The notes below the pieces were generated by a model. It ran no database searches. It saw only the letters and a list, made by a program, of their open reading frames with translations, and was not told where the DNA came from. This document shows, in pieces, positions 52,529 through 61,316 of a DNA stretch of 64,000 nt (positions within the stretch are counted from its first letter, which is position 1; every line of letters begins with the position of its first letter). The stretch lies in contig NZ_CP011968.1 of the NCBI RefSeq assembly GCF_001077535.1, positions 4,030,001 to 4,094,000 on the forward strand, given 5' to 3'. A program made the translations under genes and the position numbers. This DNA is from Clostridioides difficile ATCC 9689 = DSM 1296. GTDB lineage: Bacteria > Bacillota > Clostridia > Peptostreptococcales > Peptostreptococcaceae.

Positions 52529-53587
52529 ATGTTTTTTAAAGAAAGCAATGAAATAGATTTAGGTGAAATCACTATTCCCAATATCTTTATAGATATATTT
52601 ATGCCAATGGCGGACGGGTTATACGTAAAAGTTTATCTTTTAGGATATAGACAAGCATGTGATATTACTTCTAATCCTAAGTTCGACAATAATTCAATAG
52701 CCAAAAACCTAAATATACCATTGTCTGATGTGTTATCTGCTTGGAAATTCTGGGAAGAAAAGAAGATTATAAAAATACATGACAATGGAGAATATGATAA
52801 TTTTAATTATTCAATAGAATTTTTAGATTTAAAAAATTTCTATATTGAGAATATATTAAGCAATAATTCATCTATAAAATCTAATACAGATAAAGTTGTA
52901 TCTACTTCTGAAAATCCAAGTATTAGAAAAATGTTTAATTCTATAAATAAAATAGTTGGGCGATATCTCGACCCAAGTGAAAAGATGAGTATTATGGATA
53001 TAATGAATAAATACAATATGAGCCCCGATATGATACTTTGCGCATATGAATACGTCAAAGATAAAACTGGTACATCAAAGCCCGTTAAATACATTGAAGG
53101 CATTATTAGAAATTGGTATGATTCAAATTTATATACACCAAAAGATGTTGAAGAAAGCTTTTTGGTAAGAAGTGAACGATATATTTTATATAAAACGATT
53201 TTCAATGAATTGGGATTTTCAAGACAACCATCAAAATCAGAAAAAGAACTTATGGACACCTGGTTTGATAAATTTAATATGGATATAGATTTGATAATAA
53301 ATGCATGTTCTAAGTCTAAGAATATTTCAAACCCAAGTATATCTTATATAAATGGTATAATTAAAAATTGGAATGAAAAAAATATAAAAAATTTAAATGA
53401 TTTAAAGCAAAAAGAGGAAGAACGTATAGTTAAGGAGAATATTAATAAGAAGCAGATTAATACTACTCAAAACAACAATACTTACAAAAAAACTAAGTTT
53501 CATAATTTCAACGAAACATTCACTCAGTATACCTCTGATGAGCTCGATGAGATTATTAAAAAAAGTCAAAAAGAAAAGTTTAAGTAG
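52529..53587 (+). CDS. DnaD-domain primosomal protein
   Basis: 352 residues. An N-terminal winged-helix part (about 20-85), then two DnaB_2/DnaD C-terminal-type domains. Each ends with the YxxxIxxxW ssDNA/DNA motif: YIEGIIRNWYD near 192 and YINGIIKNWNE near 273. The last 80 residues are low-complexity and charged. This is the arrangement of the clostridial primosome protein that, with the DnaI-like ATPase next door, loads the replicative helicase. GAGGTG site; eight bases before the next gene, so one operon. Confidence 0.87.
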   Translation: MFFKESNEIDLGEITIPNIFIDIFMPMADGLYVKVYLLGYRQACDITSNPKFDNNSIAKNLNIPLSDVLSAWKFWEEKKIIKIHDNGEYDNFNYSIEFLDLKNFYIENILSNNSSIKSNTDKVVSTSENPSIRKMFNSINKIVGRYLDPSEKMSIMDIMNKYNMSPDMILCAYEYVKDKTGTSKPVKYIEGIIRNWYDSNLYTPKDVEESFLVRSERYILYKTIFNELGFSRQPSKSEKELMDTWFDKFNMDIDLIINACSKSKNISNPSISYINGIIKNWNEKNIKNLNDLKQKEEERIVKENINKKQINTTQNNNTYKKTKFHNFNETFTQYTSDELDEIIKKSQKEKFK

Positions 53588-53595
53588 GTGATTAA

Positions 53596-54588
53596 ATGAA
53601 TGAGGATAAAATAAGAAAAATACTTGCTAAATATGCTAAGAGAAGAGATGATAATGAACTCTTATTAGAACATAGAAAAAATGAGGTATATAATAGAATC
53701 CCGGAGATAAAATCTATAGATGATGAAATTTCTAAAATAGGTCTCAGTTTAGCTAAGATAGTACTTTTAAATCCCAAATCTAAAGATGAAATTGTAAAGA
53801 AGACTAAAGAGAATATAGAGTCTTTAAAAGTAAAGAAAGAAAGACTTTTAGCTGAAAGTAACATACCTCTTGATTACTTGGAAATAAAGTTTCAATGTAT
53901 TTCTTGTAAAGATAAAGGATTTTTACCTAATGGAGAAAAATGTTCTTGCCTCAAACAAGAAATTGTAAATGAAGCTTATAAAATGTCTAATTTAGATAGG
54001 ATTTTAAGTCAGGAAAATTTTTCGAATTTTAACTTGAATATATTTTCTCCTAAGAAAGGCTCTGATGGTGAAATATCTCCTAGAGAAAATATGCTAAATA
54101 ATTTAAGTATCTGCGAAAATTTTGTTCATGATTTTAAGAAGGATAATAGTGAAAATCTACTGTTTTATGGTTCTACTGGACTAGGAAAGACCTATATGTG
54201 CAATTGTATTGCAAAGGAATTGTTAGATAAAGGCAATGTTGTAATCTATCAAACTTCTTTTAGAATTTTAGATATTCTTGAAGATTATAAATTTAGAAGA
54301 GACACAAATAATCAAATAAGTGAAGATAATTATAAAAACTTGTTTGATTGTGATTTATTAATAATAGATGACCTTGGAACTGAACTTAATAATTCTTTTA
54401 CTAGTGGAGAAATCTTCAATATTGTAAATACAAGACTTGTTGCTGGTAAAAAAATCATTATTTCAACCAACTTAACACCATCTCAAATAGGAAATACTTA
54501 CACTCAAAGAACTCTCTCTAGAATATTAGATAAGTTTAGGATTTTAGAATTTACTGGAGATGATTTGAGATGGGAAAGATTTAAATAA
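53596..54588 (+). CDS. DnaI/DnaC-like helicase-loader ATPase
   Basis: 330 residues. N-terminal helical region (about 1-90), a Cys4 zinc site with CISC and CSC (near 108-122), then an AAA+ domain: Walker A GSTGLGKTY near 194, Walker B LLIIDDLGTE near 256, and a sensor-1 STNLTP near 292. It loads the DnaB-type helicase encoded at 57525-58853. Start ATG after GTAGGTG. The only other plus-strand replication gene is its upstream partner. Confidence 0.88.
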   Translation: MNEDKIRKILAKYAKRRDDNELLLEHRKNEVYNRIPEIKSIDDEISKIGLSLAKIVLLNPKSKDEIVKKTKENIESLKVKKERLLAESNIPLDYLEIKFQCISCKDKGFLPNGEKCSCLKQEIVNEAYKMSNLDRILSQENFSNFNLNIFSPKKGSDGEISPRENMLNNLSICENFVHDFKKDNSENLLFYGSTGLGKTYMCNCIAKELLDKGNVVIYQTSFRILDILEDYKFRRDTNNQISEDNYKNLFDCDLLIIDDLGTELNNSFTSGEIFNIVNTRLVAGKKIIISTNLTPSQIGNTYTQRTLSRILDKFRILEFTGDDLRWERFK

Positions 54589-54970
54589 AATAGCCCTTAA
54601 AAAACATTTTTTTATTTTTAAATAGAGAGGTAAGAGCAAACTTGCTTCTCTGTTTAAAACTTATATCACATAAATTAAAACATACTTTTTATTTTTCTAT
54701 TTACATATCTAATGTATCTTAATCTAACAAATCATTTACATTCTTAGTAGTCTATATTTATTGATACTATAAATTAAATTTGCTATATTACATAATACTA
54801 TGCTAGAATGATTCTAAATTTTATATTTAAAACTATCACATTGCAAGTAATTCAAAATTTTGTTGTATGTTTAATTTCATTTTTAATACAATAAAAATGA
54901 AATTAAAAAAAGATACTTAAAAGTATCCTGTAACATAGAAAATTATATTAATTTGAATTTATGTACTTTG
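54589..54970. other. Gene-free stretch between dnaI-like gene and tRNAs
   Basis: About 380 bases. A weak hairpin at 54624-54651 (11 pairs, two G-U) may end the primosome operon. A perfect 13-bp inverted repeat (54873-54885 with 54892-54904) lies beside the tRNA terminator. No coding region seen. Confidence 0.5.
54912..54927 (-). terminator. Terminator of the tRNA operon
   Basis: GATACTT pairs with AAGTATC around a two-base loop; on the minus strand TTTTTTT follows. It is 44 bases beyond tRNA-Thr. Confidence 0.7.
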
Positions 54971-55045
54971 TGGAGCTGGTGATAGGAATCGAACCTACAA
55001 CCTGCTGATTACAAGTCAGCTGCTCTACCGTTGAGCCACACCAGC
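54971..55045 (-). tRNA. tRNA-Thr (TGT)
   Basis: 75 bases with encoded CCA. Acceptor GCTGGTG pairs with CACCAGC; the anticodon loop is CTTGTAA; T-arm GGTTCGATTCC. Last of four tRNAs transcribed leftwards. Confidence 0.95.
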
Positions 55046-55078
55046 ATATAATCTAGTATTTATCTCTAATTCAAAATT

Positions 55079-55154
55079 TGGTGGGACTAACAGGGCTCGA
55101 ACCTGTGACCCCCTGCTTGTAAGGCAGGTGCTCTCCCAGCTGAGCTATAGTCCC
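55079..55154 (-). tRNA. tRNA-Val (TAC)
   Basis: 76 bases with encoded CCA. Acceptor GGGACTA, anticodon loop CTTACAA, T-arm GGTTCGAGCCC. Third in the tRNA operon. Confidence 0.95.
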
Positions 55155-55158
55155 ATAC

Positions 55159-55233
55159 TGGTGACTCGTAGGGGAATTGAACCCCTGTTACCGCCGTGAA
55201 AGGGCGGTGTCTTAACCTCTTGACCAACGAGCC
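55159..55233 (-). tRNA. tRNA-Glu (TTC)
   Basis: 75 bases with encoded CCA. Acceptor GGCTCGT pairs with ACGAGTC (one G-U), anticodon loop CTTTCAC, T-arm GGTTCAATTCC. Second in the tRNA operon; only four bases from tRNA-Val. Confidence 0.95.
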
Positions 55234-55239
55234 ATATTT

Positions 55240-55315
55240 TGGTGATCTATCCGCGACTCGAACGCGGGACACCCTGATTAAAAGTCAGGTGCTCTACCGA
55301 CTGAGCTAATAGACC
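55240..55315 (-). tRNA. tRNA-Lys (TTT)
   Basis: 76 bases with encoded CCA. Acceptor GGTCTAT, anticodon loop CTTTTAA, T-arm CGTTCGAGTCG. First of the tRNA operon. Confidence 0.95.
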
Positions 55316-55640
55316 ACATTTTTTCGACTTTTTTCGTCGTTTCTTTCACTCACAAGTTATATTATAGCGTCTATATAATTTTTAGTCAATAGTTTTTTTT
55401 ACTTTTTTTAGAATATAATTAAAATCATCTTTAGCCATTTATTTTCAACAAAATTCTTTTTAAAAAACCTATATGTATCTACATAAATTCAACTTTAATT
55501 TCAGTTAGAATATGTATAAGTAGCTTTAACTTAATAAAAAATCAATGTAGGTCAAATATAAAAGAGCATCTCTAATAACTATAAACATTATCTTGAGATA
55601 CTCTTCTTCAACTATTTTAAATTATTTAATTGATAAAATA
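55316..55640. other. Intergenic stretch, tRNA promoter region and purA terminator
   Basis: About 325 bases. The promoter of the tRNA operon must be near the left end, and the purA terminator is at the right end. No ORF seen. Confidence 0.5.
55561..55605 (-). terminator. Terminator of purA
   Basis: AAGAGCATCTC pairs with GAGATACTCTT (one mismatch) across a long AT-rich loop, 36 bases after the stop; TTTTATATTT follows on the minus strand. Confidence 0.6.
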
Positions 55641-56948
<1,308 letters not shown>

Positions 56949-56977
56949 TTATATACTCTCGAACACTTTACTTACTT

Positions 56978-57006
56978 ATTCTATCAAACATTCGTATTTT
57001 TTTCAA
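56978..57006 (-). promoter_or_regulatory. Promoter of purA
   Basis: On the minus strand TTGAAA (57001-57006), 17 bases, TAGAAT (56978-56983), about 50 bases before the start codon. Confidence 0.6.
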
Positions 57007-57011
57007 CTTTT

Positions 57012-57320
57012 TTAGTATTCTCCAATATTTAACATATATTCTTCTATTTTTGAAAACTCTTCTTTCTCTATTATTTCTTTTTCATATTTTATAACTTTTT
57101 CCATAAATTTATCCACATCTAAAAGTTTTTCTAATTTACATATGTTAATTATGTTTCCAAAGTTTGTATTAGTCATGTTTATATGATACTGATTATCCAC
57201 ATTATTAGCATAAACAACAATAGATTCTCTTAAATTATTGTCAATTACTCTAAATAAGTTTATTTCATCAAGTACTTTAATTATATTGGGATATATATAT
57301 TTTAAGCTTATTTTTTCCAT
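57012..57320 (-). CDS. Unrecognised 102-residue protein between dnaB and purA
   Basis: 102 residues, acidic and helix-prone, Glu/Lys-rich C-terminal third, one cysteine, no membrane segment. A clear AGGAGG site precedes ATG, so it is probably real. No family recognised. Two exact TTATCCACA DnaA boxes fall inside the coding sequence (57109-57117, 57193-57201). Its stop is only six bases from the purA -35 element. It follows dnaB across the DnaA-box region. Confidence 0.65.
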   Translation of the reverse strand: MEKISLKYIYPNIIKVLDEINLFRVIDNNLRESIVVYANNVDNQYHINMTNTNFGNIINICKLEKLLDVDKFMEKVIKYEKEIIEKEEFSKIEEYMLNIGEY

Positions 57321-57549
57321 ATTATTCCTCCTAATAATTAATATTTATACACAGATAAAGCAAGCCAAAAGCTTGCTTTATCTACTTATTCACACTTATC
57401 AACAGGCCATCTGTGGATAGTGTGGATAGTTTTTTAGCTAAATTTCAATGTTTGGACATATTTAGTGACATGTATCCACATTTTTCCTGTAGAAAGAAAG
57501 GACGTTCTGTGGATATTCGTTAGATTATAGGTCTCTCAACTTATCCCCA
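57109..57549. promoter_or_regulatory. DnaA-box cluster
   Basis: Ten sites match TTATNCACA with at most one difference. Exact TTATCCACA on the plus strand at 57109 and 57193; TTATACACA at 57345 and TTATTCACA at 57386; TTATCAACA at 57396; two abutting TGTGGATAG (minus-strand boxes) at 57412 and 57421; GTATCCACA at 57472; TGTGGATAT (minus) at 57508; and TTATCCCCA at 57541 inside dnaB. Seven of them lie in the 172 bases between 57345 and 57516. DnaA would be expected to bind here cooperatively. Confidence 0.7.
57353..57383 (-). terminator. Hairpin downstream of dnaB
   Basis: Perfect 13-bp stem AGATAAAGCAAGC with GCTTGCTTTATCT and a five-base loop. No U-run follows on the minus strand, so termination may be incomplete. 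It sits within the DnaA-box cluster. Confidence 0.65.
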
Positions 57550-58853
57550 AATCTTTGAACTTCACCAAGCCAAACAAGTTCCACAGAACCAGTTTCACCG
57601 TGTCTATTTTTTGCTATTATTACTTCTCCTATATTTTTACTCTCAGAATCAGCATGATAATATTCGTCCCTGTATAAGAACATAACTATATCTGCATCCT
57701 GTTCTATTGCTCCAGACTCTCTTAAATCAGATAACATAGGTCTATGGTCTGCTCTTTGTTCTGGTGCACGTGATAACTGAGATAGTGCTACTACAGGACA
57801 GTTTAATTCTTTTGCTAATATTTTTAGTGACCTTGATATCTTAGATATCTCTTGTTGTCTGCTTTCATTATTACCTTCACCTTCCATAAGTTGAAGATAA
57901 TCAATAAGCACTAAATCTAGTCCTTTTTCTATTTTTAACTTTCTACACTTTGACCTTAGTTCTGATATTTTTATACCAGGAGTATCATCTATGTGTATTT
58001 TGGCATCTGATAATACTGCCATAGCATCTATAATTCTAGGCCAATCATTATCATTAAGTGTTCCAGTCTTTATTTTTTTTAATTCTACACTAGATTGTGA
58101 AGATAACATACGTTGTACTAATTGTTCCTTAGACATCTCTAAACTAAATACAGCTACAGAGGCATCACCTTTTAAGGCTGCATTTTGAACCAAGTTTAAA
58201 GAAAAGGCAGTTTTACCCATTGCTGGTCTAGCTGCAATTAATATTAAATCAGTCCTTTGAAGACCATTTATTTTTTTGTTTAAATCTTTAAAACCAGTAG
58301 TTATACCAGTGACATCACTCTTGTTAGTGTATAATTTTTCTATCATATCATAGGCATCCATCAAAACTAAGTTTATAGATTTAAAATCATCACTAGTTTT
58401 CTCCTGTGATATATCAAATATACTCTTTTCAGCTTGTTCTAAAACATCTTCAATCTTAGTTGCTCCACTATATCCTAGATTTATTATTTCATTAGAAGCT
58501 TTTATAAGCTTTCTAAGTACAGACTTTTCTTTTACTATATCAGCATAGTATTTTACATTTGAAGTCGTCGGTACTATAGTAGAAAGACTTGTAATATAAC
58601 TGATTCCTCCAATATCATTAAGATGCCCTTGTTTTCTTAGTTCTTCTGTTAATGTTATCAAGTCTATAGGCTCACCTTTATTACTTAAAGTTATCATACA
58701 TTCATATATTATTTTGTGAGCCTCTTTATAGAAATCATCAGGCTTTATAGTTTCTGTAACCGTTATTATAGCATCTTTATCTAGAAGTATAGAACCCAAT
58801 ATTGATTGTTCTGATTCTACACTATGAGGAGGAATTCTCGTCATATCTTCCAT
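57525..58853 (-). CDS. dnaB: Replicative DNA helicase DnaB (DnaC in Bacillus)
   Basis: 442 residues. N-terminal helical domain (about 1-105), linker, and RecA-like C-terminal domain with Walker A ARPAMGKTAF near 204 and Walker B LVLIDYLQLM near 307. No intein. It unwinds the fork as a hexamer and is loaded by the DnaI-like ATPase with the DnaD-like protein. The start is at MEDMTRIPP; the in-frame GTG before it belongs to the AGAGGTG site. It is the last gene of the mazG-like-yybS-gdpP-rplI-dnaB run. Confidence 0.97.
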   Translation of the reverse strand: MEDMTRIPPHSVESEQSILGSILLDKDAIITVTETIKPDDFYKEAHKIIYECMITLSNKGEPIDLITLTEELRKQGHLNDIGGISYITSLSTIVPTTSNVKYYADIVKEKSVLRKLIKASNEIINLGYSGATKIEDVLEQAEKSIFDISQEKTSDDFKSINLVLMDAYDMIEKLYTNKSDVTGITTGFKDLNKKINGLQRTDLILIAARPAMGKTAFSLNLVQNAALKGDASVAVFSLEMSKEQLVQRMLSSQSSVELKKIKTGTLNDNDWPRIIDAMAVLSDAKIHIDDTPGIKISELRSKCRKLKIEKGLDLVLIDYLQLMEGEGNNESRQQEISKISRSLKILAKELNCPVVALSQLSRAPEQRADHRPMLSDLRESGAIEQDADIVMFLYRDEYYHADSESKNIGEVIIAKNRHGETGSVELVWLGEVQRFGDKLRDL

Positions 58854-58871
58854 CTTAATCACCTCTAGTTA

Positions 58872-59321
58872 TTACTGTTTTTCTTTTACATCCACTCTTA
58901 TTTTAGTAGTTACTTTTTGATGTATTTTTATTTCTACGAAAGTTGAACCTAAAGATCTTATTGGTTCATCTAATAATATTTTTCTTTTATCTACATCTAT
59001 GTCTTTTTGTTTCTTTAATTGCTCAGCAATTTCTTTAGAAGTTATTGAACCAAATAATCTTCCACCTTCTCCTGCTTTTGAATATATTTCTATATTAATT
59101 TCTTCCATTTGCTTACCTAATAAAACTGCTTCTTCATACTCTTTTTGTGCTTTTATTTCTTTAGATTTATTCTTTTCATTTAATTCTTTTATTGCTACAC
59201 TATCTGCTTGCACAGCCATCTTTTTAGGAAATAAGAAATTTCTTGCATATCCATCACTTACTTCTTTCATTTCTCCCTTTTTACCAGTTCCCTTTACGTC
59301 TTTTAATAATATAACTTTCAT
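58872..59321 (-). CDS. rplI: Ribosomal protein L9
   Basis: 149 residues, normal length. N-terminal signature [23 protein letters not shown] is partly visible at residues 7-29, followed by the long connecting helix (about 40-75) and the C-terminal RNA-binding domain. It binds helix 76 region of 23S rRNA near the L1 stalk. The ATG lies directly after the gdpP stop, so translation is coupled. Confidence 0.97.
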
Positions 59322-61316
59322 CTATTCTTCCTCCTCCAAATACTCCTCTATTATTTTATTTACCATCTTATAAGCTTCTTTTAGAGAAACATTTTTTAAC
59401 TGTGCTCCAGCTATATCTATGTGTCCCCCGCCTCCTAATTTTTCCATAAGTACATGTACATTTATTTGTCCTAAAGACCTCGCACTTATAAATATAGTAT
59501 CATCTTTTTCACCTAATACAAAGGAAGCTTCTACTTCTTTGATATTTAATAACTCATCAGCAGTTTGAGCTATTATAACATTTATACTATCTATCTCAGT
59601 ACTTGAATATGCTAAACATATTCTATTATTAATTATTTTAGTACTTTGAATTATTTCAGCTTTTATTATGAAATCTTTTACATCAGAATTGAAGAATTTC
59701 TTTACCTCTATAGTATCTGCTCCAACTTTTCTAAGGTAAGAAGCAGCTTCAAAAGTTCTAACACCTGTTTTGAATGCAAAGTTTTTAGTATCTAGACTTA
59801 TACCTGCTAAAAGCCCTTCAGCTGTAAGTTTATTTATTGTTACATCTTCATCCATATACTGAACTAACTCTGTAACCATTTCACACGTTGAGGATACATA
59901 TATCTCATGGAATAAAAGCACTGCATCATTTATAAACTCTACACCTCTTCTATGATGGTCTATAACTACTACCTTCTCTGATAGCTTTAACAGTTCTTCA
60001 CATTCAGTATAATTTGGTCTATGAGTATCAACTACTACAACTAATGTATTTTTAGTGCAGTTGTCAATAGCTTCCTCTTTTCCAATAAACAACTTTTTAT
60101 AGTAATTATTTTCATTTATTTTATTTATAAATATTTCTATAGATTCATTTACAGATTGTAAAACTATGTTTGCAGTTTTGTTACAGGATTTACATATATC
60201 ATAAACACCAACTGCTGCTCCCATAGCATCCATATCAGGATATTTATGTCCCATTATATAAACCTGGTCACTTTGTTGTATAACCTCTCTTAAAGCATGA
60301 CCTATTAATCTGGATTTTACTTTGGTTTTCTTTTCTACAGCTTTAGATTTTCCTCCATAAAACACAAATTTATCTTTTGTTTTTACAACAGCCTGGTCAC
60401 CACCTCTACCAAGTGCTAAATCGAGAGCACCCGTAGCAAGTTTTAGGTTCTCATTTAATGTATCTCCATCTATACCAATTCCTATACTTATAGTAACAGG
60501 AAGATTATTTCCATAATCAATATGTCTTATTGTATCTAAAATAGAAAACTTCTCAGCTTCCAATTTTTTTAACTCTTTTTTATGCATTACCAAGAAGAAT
60601 TTGTCTTTTGAAGTTCTTCTCAATGCACCATTTGAATTTAATTCTAAAGCAGAAAGTATTTTCTCTACTTCAACATTAATTAAAGCTCTCTTATCTTCTG
60701 CTGCACTTTTTAATACTTCATCATATCCATCTACTTGTATTAGCATCATTGCATTTTTTTCATCATCATAATTTTGTTTTACTTTTAAATATTCAGTCTT
60801 GTCTATCCAGTATAATATCATCAAATATTTAGGATTTTTTTCTTGATCATTTTTTATAACATTATAAATTATTGTATATTCTTTTTCTTTATAGTTTATT
60901 TCTGTGTACATCTCTTTATTTTCATTTAATACTTTTCTTAAATTAAGATTTTTAACTATATCCTCTATATTTTTATCAAGTAAATCTTTTTGACCAATCA
61001 TATCATAAAACTTTCCATTATACCAGGATATATTTCCATCAAATTCTAAAATACATAATGGTATTGGAAGATTTATTATGGCTTTTTTAGTTGTTTCATC
61101 TATATCTAAAGATAAATTTTGAATATACTCTGTCCATTCATGACGTCTAATATTAGTAGTTCTCCAATTGTGAAAAACCATATATACAAAAATACAGAAA
61201 AATAAACACCCTACATACAAGTTGTAATAAAGCAAAATTATACTAGAAATACCAATAACAATTATATATAAATTTATTTCTGGCATATTTAATTTAAAGG
61301 CTTGTTTATTACTCAT
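59322..61316 (-). CDS. gdpP: GdpP/YybT cyclic-di-AMP phosphodiesterase
   Basis: 664 residues. Two N-terminal membrane helices (about 12-50), a PAS-like haem-binding domain (about 85-170), a degenerate GGDEF domain (about 180-305, motif not GGDEF), and DHH/DHHA1 domains (about 340-660) with MGHKYPDMDAMG, VVVVDTHRP, VVIDHHRRG and the GGGGH tail near 634. It cleaves c-di-AMP to pApA and so controls K+ and osmolyte balance. It sits between yybS and rplI as in other Firmicutes. AGGAGG site. Confidence 0.95.
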   Translation of the reverse strand: MSNKQAFKLNMPEINLYIIVIGISSIILLYYNLYVGCLFFCIFVYMVFHNWRTTNIRRHEWTEYIQNLSLDIDETTKKAIINLPIPLCILEFDGNISWYNGKFYDMIGQKDLLDKNIEDIVKNLNLRKVLNENKEMYTEINYKEKEYTIIYNVIKNDQEKNPKYLMILYWIDKTEYLKVKQNYDDEKNAMMLIQVDGYDEVLKSAAEDKRALINVEVEKILSALELNSNGALRRTSKDKFFLVMHKKELKKLEAEKFSILDTIRHIDYGNNLPVTISIGIGIDGDTLNENLKLATGALDLALGRGGDQAVVKTKDKFVFYGGKSKAVEKKTKVKSRLIGHALREVIQQSDQVYIMGHKYPDMDAMGAAVGVYDICKSCNKTANIVLQSVNESIEIFINKINENNYYKKLFIGKEEAIDNCTKNTLVVVVDTHRPNYTECEELLKLSEKVVVIDHHRRGVEFINDAVLLFHEIYVSSTCEMVTELVQYMDEDVTINKLTAEGLLAGISLDTKNFAFKTGVRTFEAASYLRKVGADTIEVKKFFNSDVKDFIIKAEIIQSTKIINNRICLAYSSTEIDSINVIIAQTADELLNIKEVEASFVLGEKDDTIFISARSLGQINVHVLMEKLGGGGHIDIAGAQLKNVSLKEAYKMVNKIIEEYLEEEE

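Follow-up and report, generated by a model that had tools for sequence, protein, structure and literature searches.

A conserved array of facing DnaA boxes downstream of dnaB in Clostridioides difficile and its family, a candidate DnaA-control site outside oriC

Downstream of dnaB in Clostridioides difficile we identified an array of DnaA boxes that has a fixed geometry, constrained box bases and a place near dnaA, and in which neither a DnaA-trio nor unusually unstable DNA was found. Because the facing geometry is fixed, the box bases are constrained and oriC is close by, we read the array as a DnaA-control element. We consider it fairly probable, judging from sequence comparison, that it is a cis-acting site for DnaA assembly outside oriC that controls DnaA itself rather than a neighbouring gene. 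Most simply, its function would be titration, i.e. holding DnaA after initiation.

Layout and density of the box array

Ten sites agreeing with TTATNCACA with at most one mismatch had been proposed between purA and dnaB in a preliminary description of the window (the whole 64-kb stretch of DNA analysed here). All ten were found, starting at 57109, 57193, 57345, 57386, 57396, 57412, 57421, 57472, 57508 and 57541 (a 441-bp span); four of them are exact. Seven fall within 57345–57516, which confirms the seven boxes in 172 bases originally claimed. The cluster was also said to touch the helicase gene. It does adjoin dnaB (57525–58862, minus strand; replicative DNA helicase, called dnaC in B. subtilis; Pfam DnaB_C, 2.7e-113), with the correction that the one-mismatch box at 57541–57549 lies inside the 3′ end of that gene.

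Read in the dnaB sense, the dnaB stop codon is followed by boxes E and F, the core A> B> <C <D, a hairpin, one box and a small ORF. The four-box core (57386–57429, minus strand; starts at 0, 9, 25 and 35) comprises box A (57421–57429, minus; CTATCCACA), box B (57412–57420, minus; CTATCCACA), box C (57396–57404, plus; TTATCAACA) and box D (57386–57394, plus; TTATTCACA). The abutting boxes A and B have starts 9 bp apart; the distance is 16 bp from B to C, which face one another, and 10 bp from C to D, leaving a gap of 7 bp between the facing tandem pairs A-B and C-D. An outer facing pair, E>..<F (57472–57516, minus strand; starts 36 bp apart), precedes the core and is formed by box E (57508–57516, minus; ATATCCACA) and box F (57472–57480, plus; GTATCCACA, reading TGTGGATAC in the dnaB sense). 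The core is followed by a perfect 13-bp hairpin (57353–57383), in which 57353–57365 pairs with 57371–57383. The dnaB transcript may end at this hairpin, although the hairpin has no T run and was not called in the terminator scan. In 26 of the 43 family loci, a stem of 7 bp or more occurred no more than 90 bp past the core. The further exact box past the hairpin (57345–57353, plus; TTATACACA) has a comparably placed counterpart only in several genera.

The small ORF (57012–57320, minus strand) encodes 102 aa, and downstream of it lies purA (55641–56939, minus strand; named as in the preliminary description and not family-scanned). Its product had no match in Pfam or NCBIfam, for which reason we rejected its identification as a known DnaA regulator. 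Relatives were present in 17 of the 41 genomes searched, one of them (L017) interrupted by two stops, and the 15 aligned proteins (L003 and L017 omitted) share invariant YP and EIN motifs. As described previously, two exact boxes (57109–57117 and 57193–57201) lie inside this ORF. Each was found in four of the five genus genomes compared, and the other genera had no box listed at a matching distance from the core; these boxes were therefore rejected as part of the element and stand outside the conserved array. Two further candidates were considered for the intergenic DNA. Rfam at gathering scores returned only four tRNAs across 54600–59400, which disfavours an RNA element, and a promoter array was rejected since promoter-like sites were no commoner than in shuffles (4 versus 5.1 expected), with none in 57321–57524. 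About 3 kb from the array (52529–54588 of the window) there is a DnaD-domain gene together with a helicase-loader-like gene, so helicase, loader and DnaD-like genes sit at one locus.

The total number of boxes in the window was not raised (129 versus 130.7 expected). What was raised is their clustering: ten boxes lie in 441 bp, whereas in 200 dinucleotide shuffles of the window the maximum averaged 4.75 and never exceeded 7. No shuffle (0/200) reached ten boxes in 441 bp, and the density is thus higher than base composition would give. A sliding-window comparison with oriC placed the array near the top. This one-mismatch ranking covers 463,693 bp rather than the whole chromosome (the window plus 20 stretches of the same chromosome, several picked for holding clusters), and within it only oriC1 (14 per 440 bp) and a tandem-repeat array (11) were denser, one other cluster being tied at 10. 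Ranking of clusters over the whole chromosome rests on exact sites, of which contig C1 holds 257. These form seven clusters with at least three sites per 500 bp, against an average of 0.12 under random placement. Six of the seven are within 208 kb of dnaA, the dnaB array among them; oriC1 and oriC2 account for two of the clusters, and the one further away, at 748 kb, consists of a 55-bp tandem repeat. At L053:8334–9065, 13.4 copies of a 55-bp tandem repeat adjoin DnaB-like and Mor-like genes and mimic a DnaA-box cluster.

Conservation of boxes and spacing

We surveyed the dnaB loci of 60 family genomes from 23 genera. Boxes averaged 6.77 per 600 bp after dnaB but 0.57 per 600 bp within the dnaB gene itself. 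The strict four-box facing core (each box with at most one mismatch) was present downstream of dnaB in 36 of the 60 genomes, 33 of which had spacings of 9 bp (A-B), 15–16 bp (B-C) and 10 bp (C-D); the other three, all from genus g6, were spaced differently. Seven more genomes carried a three-box core, and a looser count gave 43/60 with a core within 700 bp. Facing offsets of 25, 26, 16 and 36 bp were found in 46, 38, 35 and 34 of the 60 genomes, respectively, where the outer-pair count takes an offset of exactly 36 bp and excludes 35 bp because A-to-D is itself 35 bp. In genus g6 (DnaA 51–54% identical) the 36-bp facing pair was found in all five loci examined, with a differing core. A sequence model of the core (R1), built from 39 of the 60 family loci, scored at least 20 bits in 17 of the 21 family loci outside its training set; scores were weak at L095 (16 bits) and L096 (14 bits). 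The array was absent at two of the 60 loci, L079 and L080, both from genus g34 and from genomes that are 88% complete.

Constraint on the boxes was also apparent within the genus. Across eight genomes, all 49 intergenic box positions were invariant once box positions 1 and 5 were set aside; two of the 14 positions set aside varied. Variation was significantly greater among non-box intergenic positions (18/141; Fisher test, p 0.004) and dnaB third-codon positions (127/343; p 1e-9). The check for conservation in relatives, suggested in the preliminary description, therefore came out in favour of the array, whose boxes and spacing are kept, the boxes of the small ORF excepted.

Outside the family, 40 genomes were compared, being those with a dnaB match among 97 from other families of the order. 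Boxes after dnaB averaged 1.70 per 600 bp; one genome had a four-box core and four had a three-box core (best R1 score, 31.6 bits), which hints that the array is older than the family. The strict core pattern, sought in 84,980 species genomes (a set that may omit records of the window's own genome), occurred in 19 stretches. Eighteen of these were beside dnaB, in Clostridioides, Romboutsia, Terrisporobacter, Metaclostridioides, Faecalimicrobium or Clostridium records, and the nineteenth was in a Lachnospiraceae-named bin, between uracil-DNA-glycosylase-family and rhomboid-family genes. Of the 291 genomes of the class, 87 had an R1 match at E ≤ 0.001. Among 30 such class loci examined, nine were by dnaA, two by dnaB (the window's own and L120, genus g6) and several by unrelated genes. 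In three genomes of family f48 (L109, L110 and L112), the arrangement A> B> <C with spacings of 9 and 16 bp lies between dnaA and dnaN.

Genomic place and other box clusters

The window covers 4030001–4094000 of contig C1 (4,109,692 bp). This contig starts with dnaA, which puts the core about 22 kb from dnaA if C1 is circular. Dense DnaA boxes away from dnaA and oriC, as seen here, are one mark of a DnaA-box cluster outside oriC (DBC), the others being binding of DnaA and a change in initiation timing on removal. In 40 of 41 comparable family genomes dnaB and dnaA were about 17–35 kb apart, and in one they were 66 kb apart. These 41 remained of the 60 after dropping 17 with dnaA and dnaB on separate contigs and two (G065 and G074) with an uncertain contig end, and the distance includes gene length for four contigs treated as circular. 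The array came after dnaB in most of the genera examined. The gene after the array varied by genus, being the small ORF followed by purA, purA directly, or a tRNA, and in genera g7, g16, g4 and g33 the core lay 0.5–1.2 kb after dnaB. The array is thus retained despite a change of the following gene or the presence of another gene between it and dnaB.

Regularity similar to that of the array recurs among the boxes after dnaA (30 family loci). The boxes of oriC1 are similarly regular, with a facing trio spaced 12/12 in all 25 loci that had upstream sequence; in C. difficile this facing 12/12 trio is at L048:19420–19452. In the 463,693 bp of chromosome compared, partly selected for clusters, facing trios were found only in the array and oriC1. 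The boxes of the C. difficile oriC regions have been mapped, and the C. difficile DnaA purified, in PMC7561715. The array resembles oriC1 and oriC2 in box type and family-wide regularity, and oriC1 also in its facing trio.

Box clusters also follow spoIIE and nrdG in the family, making the dnaB array one of several. Downstream of spoIIE in C. difficile there are ten boxes, nine in the same direction (L067:6659–7058; C1 3,901,658–3,902,057), and at least four boxes per 600 bp were found in 25 of 30 family loci (30 of 33 loci examined, one without downstream sequence). Eight one-way boxes lie downstream of an nrdDG-like anaerobic ribonucleotide reductase pair (L050:6308–6733; C1 146,307–146,732). 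The region downstream of nrdG had at least four boxes per 600 bp in 18 of 30 family loci (30 of 35), and the spacing 12-9-45-9 recurs in L260 and L261. In both the spoIIE and the nrdG clusters the boxes are mostly one-way. Seven-box groups were also seen before a ribosome-associated S30AE gene (L051:8527–8872) and within a patatin-like gene (L052:11503–11934).

Interpretation of the array

Three readings had been put forward for the cluster, namely a DnaA reservoir, an autoregulatory site and part of a second origin-like element. The evidence favours the first, widened here to a DnaA-control site, over the other two, on account of the conserved boxes, their spacing and the place near dnaA, with DnaA binding itself being putative. 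DnaA would bind the tandem pairs A-B and C-D, and these facing pairs, together with the outer pair E-F, could be gathered by cooperative binding into a single compact DnaA–DNA complex. Lying near oriC, the array would be duplicated soon after initiation and would then take up DnaA, making renewed initiation within that cycle less likely. Against this stand the two loci lacking the array (L079 and L080), the weak scores of L095 and L096 and the different spacing in genus g6, as well as the average of only 1.70 boxes per 600 bp outside the family. The place near dnaA could also be plain old synteny of the dnaB region.

Several other explanations were weighed. The array might have accumulated by chance or mutation without function, as repetition can create a box cluster (the 55-bp tandem repeat at 748 kb) and the whole window shows no excess of boxes. 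However, the failure of any of 200 shuffles to reach ten boxes, the family-wide geometry and the invariance of all 49 box positions in the genus make this very unlikely. Still less credible, to the point of being extremely unlikely, is a second or former replication origin. Such an origin would account for dense, origin-like regular boxes near helicase, DnaD-domain and helicase-loader-like genes, but no DnaA-trio run of at least three triplets was found in 57321–57560, whereas oriC2 has six triplets. Nor was unusually unstable DNA found in the array, its least stable 80 bp ranking at the 69.9th percentile compared to 96.6 for oriC2 and 99.8 for oriC1 (a nearest-neighbour estimate, not SIDD). 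It is these two features, the trio and the less stable DNA, that set oriC2 apart from the array and that speak against the proposed origin-like element. In addition, the long ORFs on both sides are mostly on the minus strand (from a mechanical ORF list), as fits a fork coming from dnaA. An effect on transcription is more plausible, if still rather unlikely: DnaA on the array would block or shape transcription as it runs out of dnaB or into the small ORF and purA. With about the same reservation, dnaB, the small ORF and purA would then be coupled to the level of DnaA. In its favour, the array is flanked by the dnaB stop codon on one side and, on the other, by the small ORF, which shares the strand of dnaB; 26 of the 43 family loci have a hairpin past the core, and DnaA is known to regulate transcription (PMC11317965). 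Yet the array stays while the downstream gene changes, it is 0.5–1.2 kb from dnaB in four genera, and promoter-like sites, as noted above, are not enriched around it and are absent from 57321–57524. The autoregulatory site, in its simple form, fares poorly for similar reasons, as the array is downstream of dnaB and persists with a different next gene or an intervening one, but it may control read-through transcription.

The core could alternatively act like the E. coli DARS elements, binding ADP-DnaA and speeding the exchange of ADP for ATP, which would supply more active DnaA before the next initiation. DARS2 in addition has IHF and Fis sites. In DARS1 and DARS2 box I faces boxes II and III, an arrangement called prominent in PMC5742627, just as B faces C and D here. 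Both trios span 26 bp, with starts at 0, 14 and 26 in DARS1 and DARS2 and at 0, 16 and 26 for B, C and D (the DARS2 trio, L104 1636–1670, being our own assignment from the DARS1 spacing). The restriction of facing trios to the array and oriC1, within the partly cluster-selected 463,693 bp, also fits. The spacing, however, is 16/10 here and 14/12 in E. coli, and the facing topology is not specific to DARS, since it occurs in the oriC1 trio (12/12, 25/25 loci) and, by R1 matches, at other clostridial origins. Moreover, the DARS2 core is described as conserved in E. coli-related gamma-proteobacteria (PMC4245941). Scores of R1 on the E. coli DARS elements (15.9 and 15.2 bits) are no evidence of descent, because R1, made of DnaA boxes, scores box pairs generally. 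As the spacing differs and faster ADP release is putative, we do not file the array as a DARS, and a reactivating role appears unlikely.

A DnaA-control site would have precedents. Six DBCs outside oriC were reportedly described in B. subtilis by Okumura in 2012, and the array is alike in being a DnaA-box cluster outside oriC on a Firmicute chromosome. Deletion of all six leads to early initiation (PMC5295017, PMC13220808), which fits titration, although control is not lost. The parallel with B. subtilis, drawn in the preliminary description, is apt, although the review PMC5295017 judges the clusters there to be without a significant role in initiation, which, like the retained control in that deletion, counts against our preferred reading. 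The B. subtilis sites also differ in place, with strong sites at ywcI, gcp, trmE, ywlC, sda and yydA, and with neither dnaC nor purA appearing in the main text of PMC4447404. E. coli datA has an IHF site and stimulates ATP hydrolysis. Like the array, it is a non-coding DnaA-box cluster outside oriC, but its essential boxes all point in one direction (PMC5742627), whereas the array core faces inward. Titration has been argued for E. coli (PMC12371093). DnaA of E. coli favours box pairs 2–3 bp apart (PMC11317965), and the pairing rule would differ here as the tandem boxes of the array are 0–1 bp apart.

Within the open-licence literature, as judged by titles and the starts of abstracts, an array after dnaB in the family of C. 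difficile is undescribed. In general type, the array is probably a DnaA-control site of the kind already known in E. coli and Bacillus. A 2026 review states that B. subtilis lacks datA, DARS1 and DARS2 and treats as an open question whether it has regulators that balance ADP-DnaA and ATP-DnaA (PMC13220808). An improbable extension would make the array a Firmicute DARS-like reactivator that, with datA-like clusters at spoIIE and nrdDG, forms a DNA-encoded on/off cycle for DnaA. If true, there would be such a cycle in bacteria where none is recognised in the literature covered. As a defined element with known boxes and spacings, the array in the family of C. difficile makes the question of ADP-DnaA/ATP-DnaA regulators testable, and its conservation shows which DnaA-box geometries outside oriC are retained by evolution.
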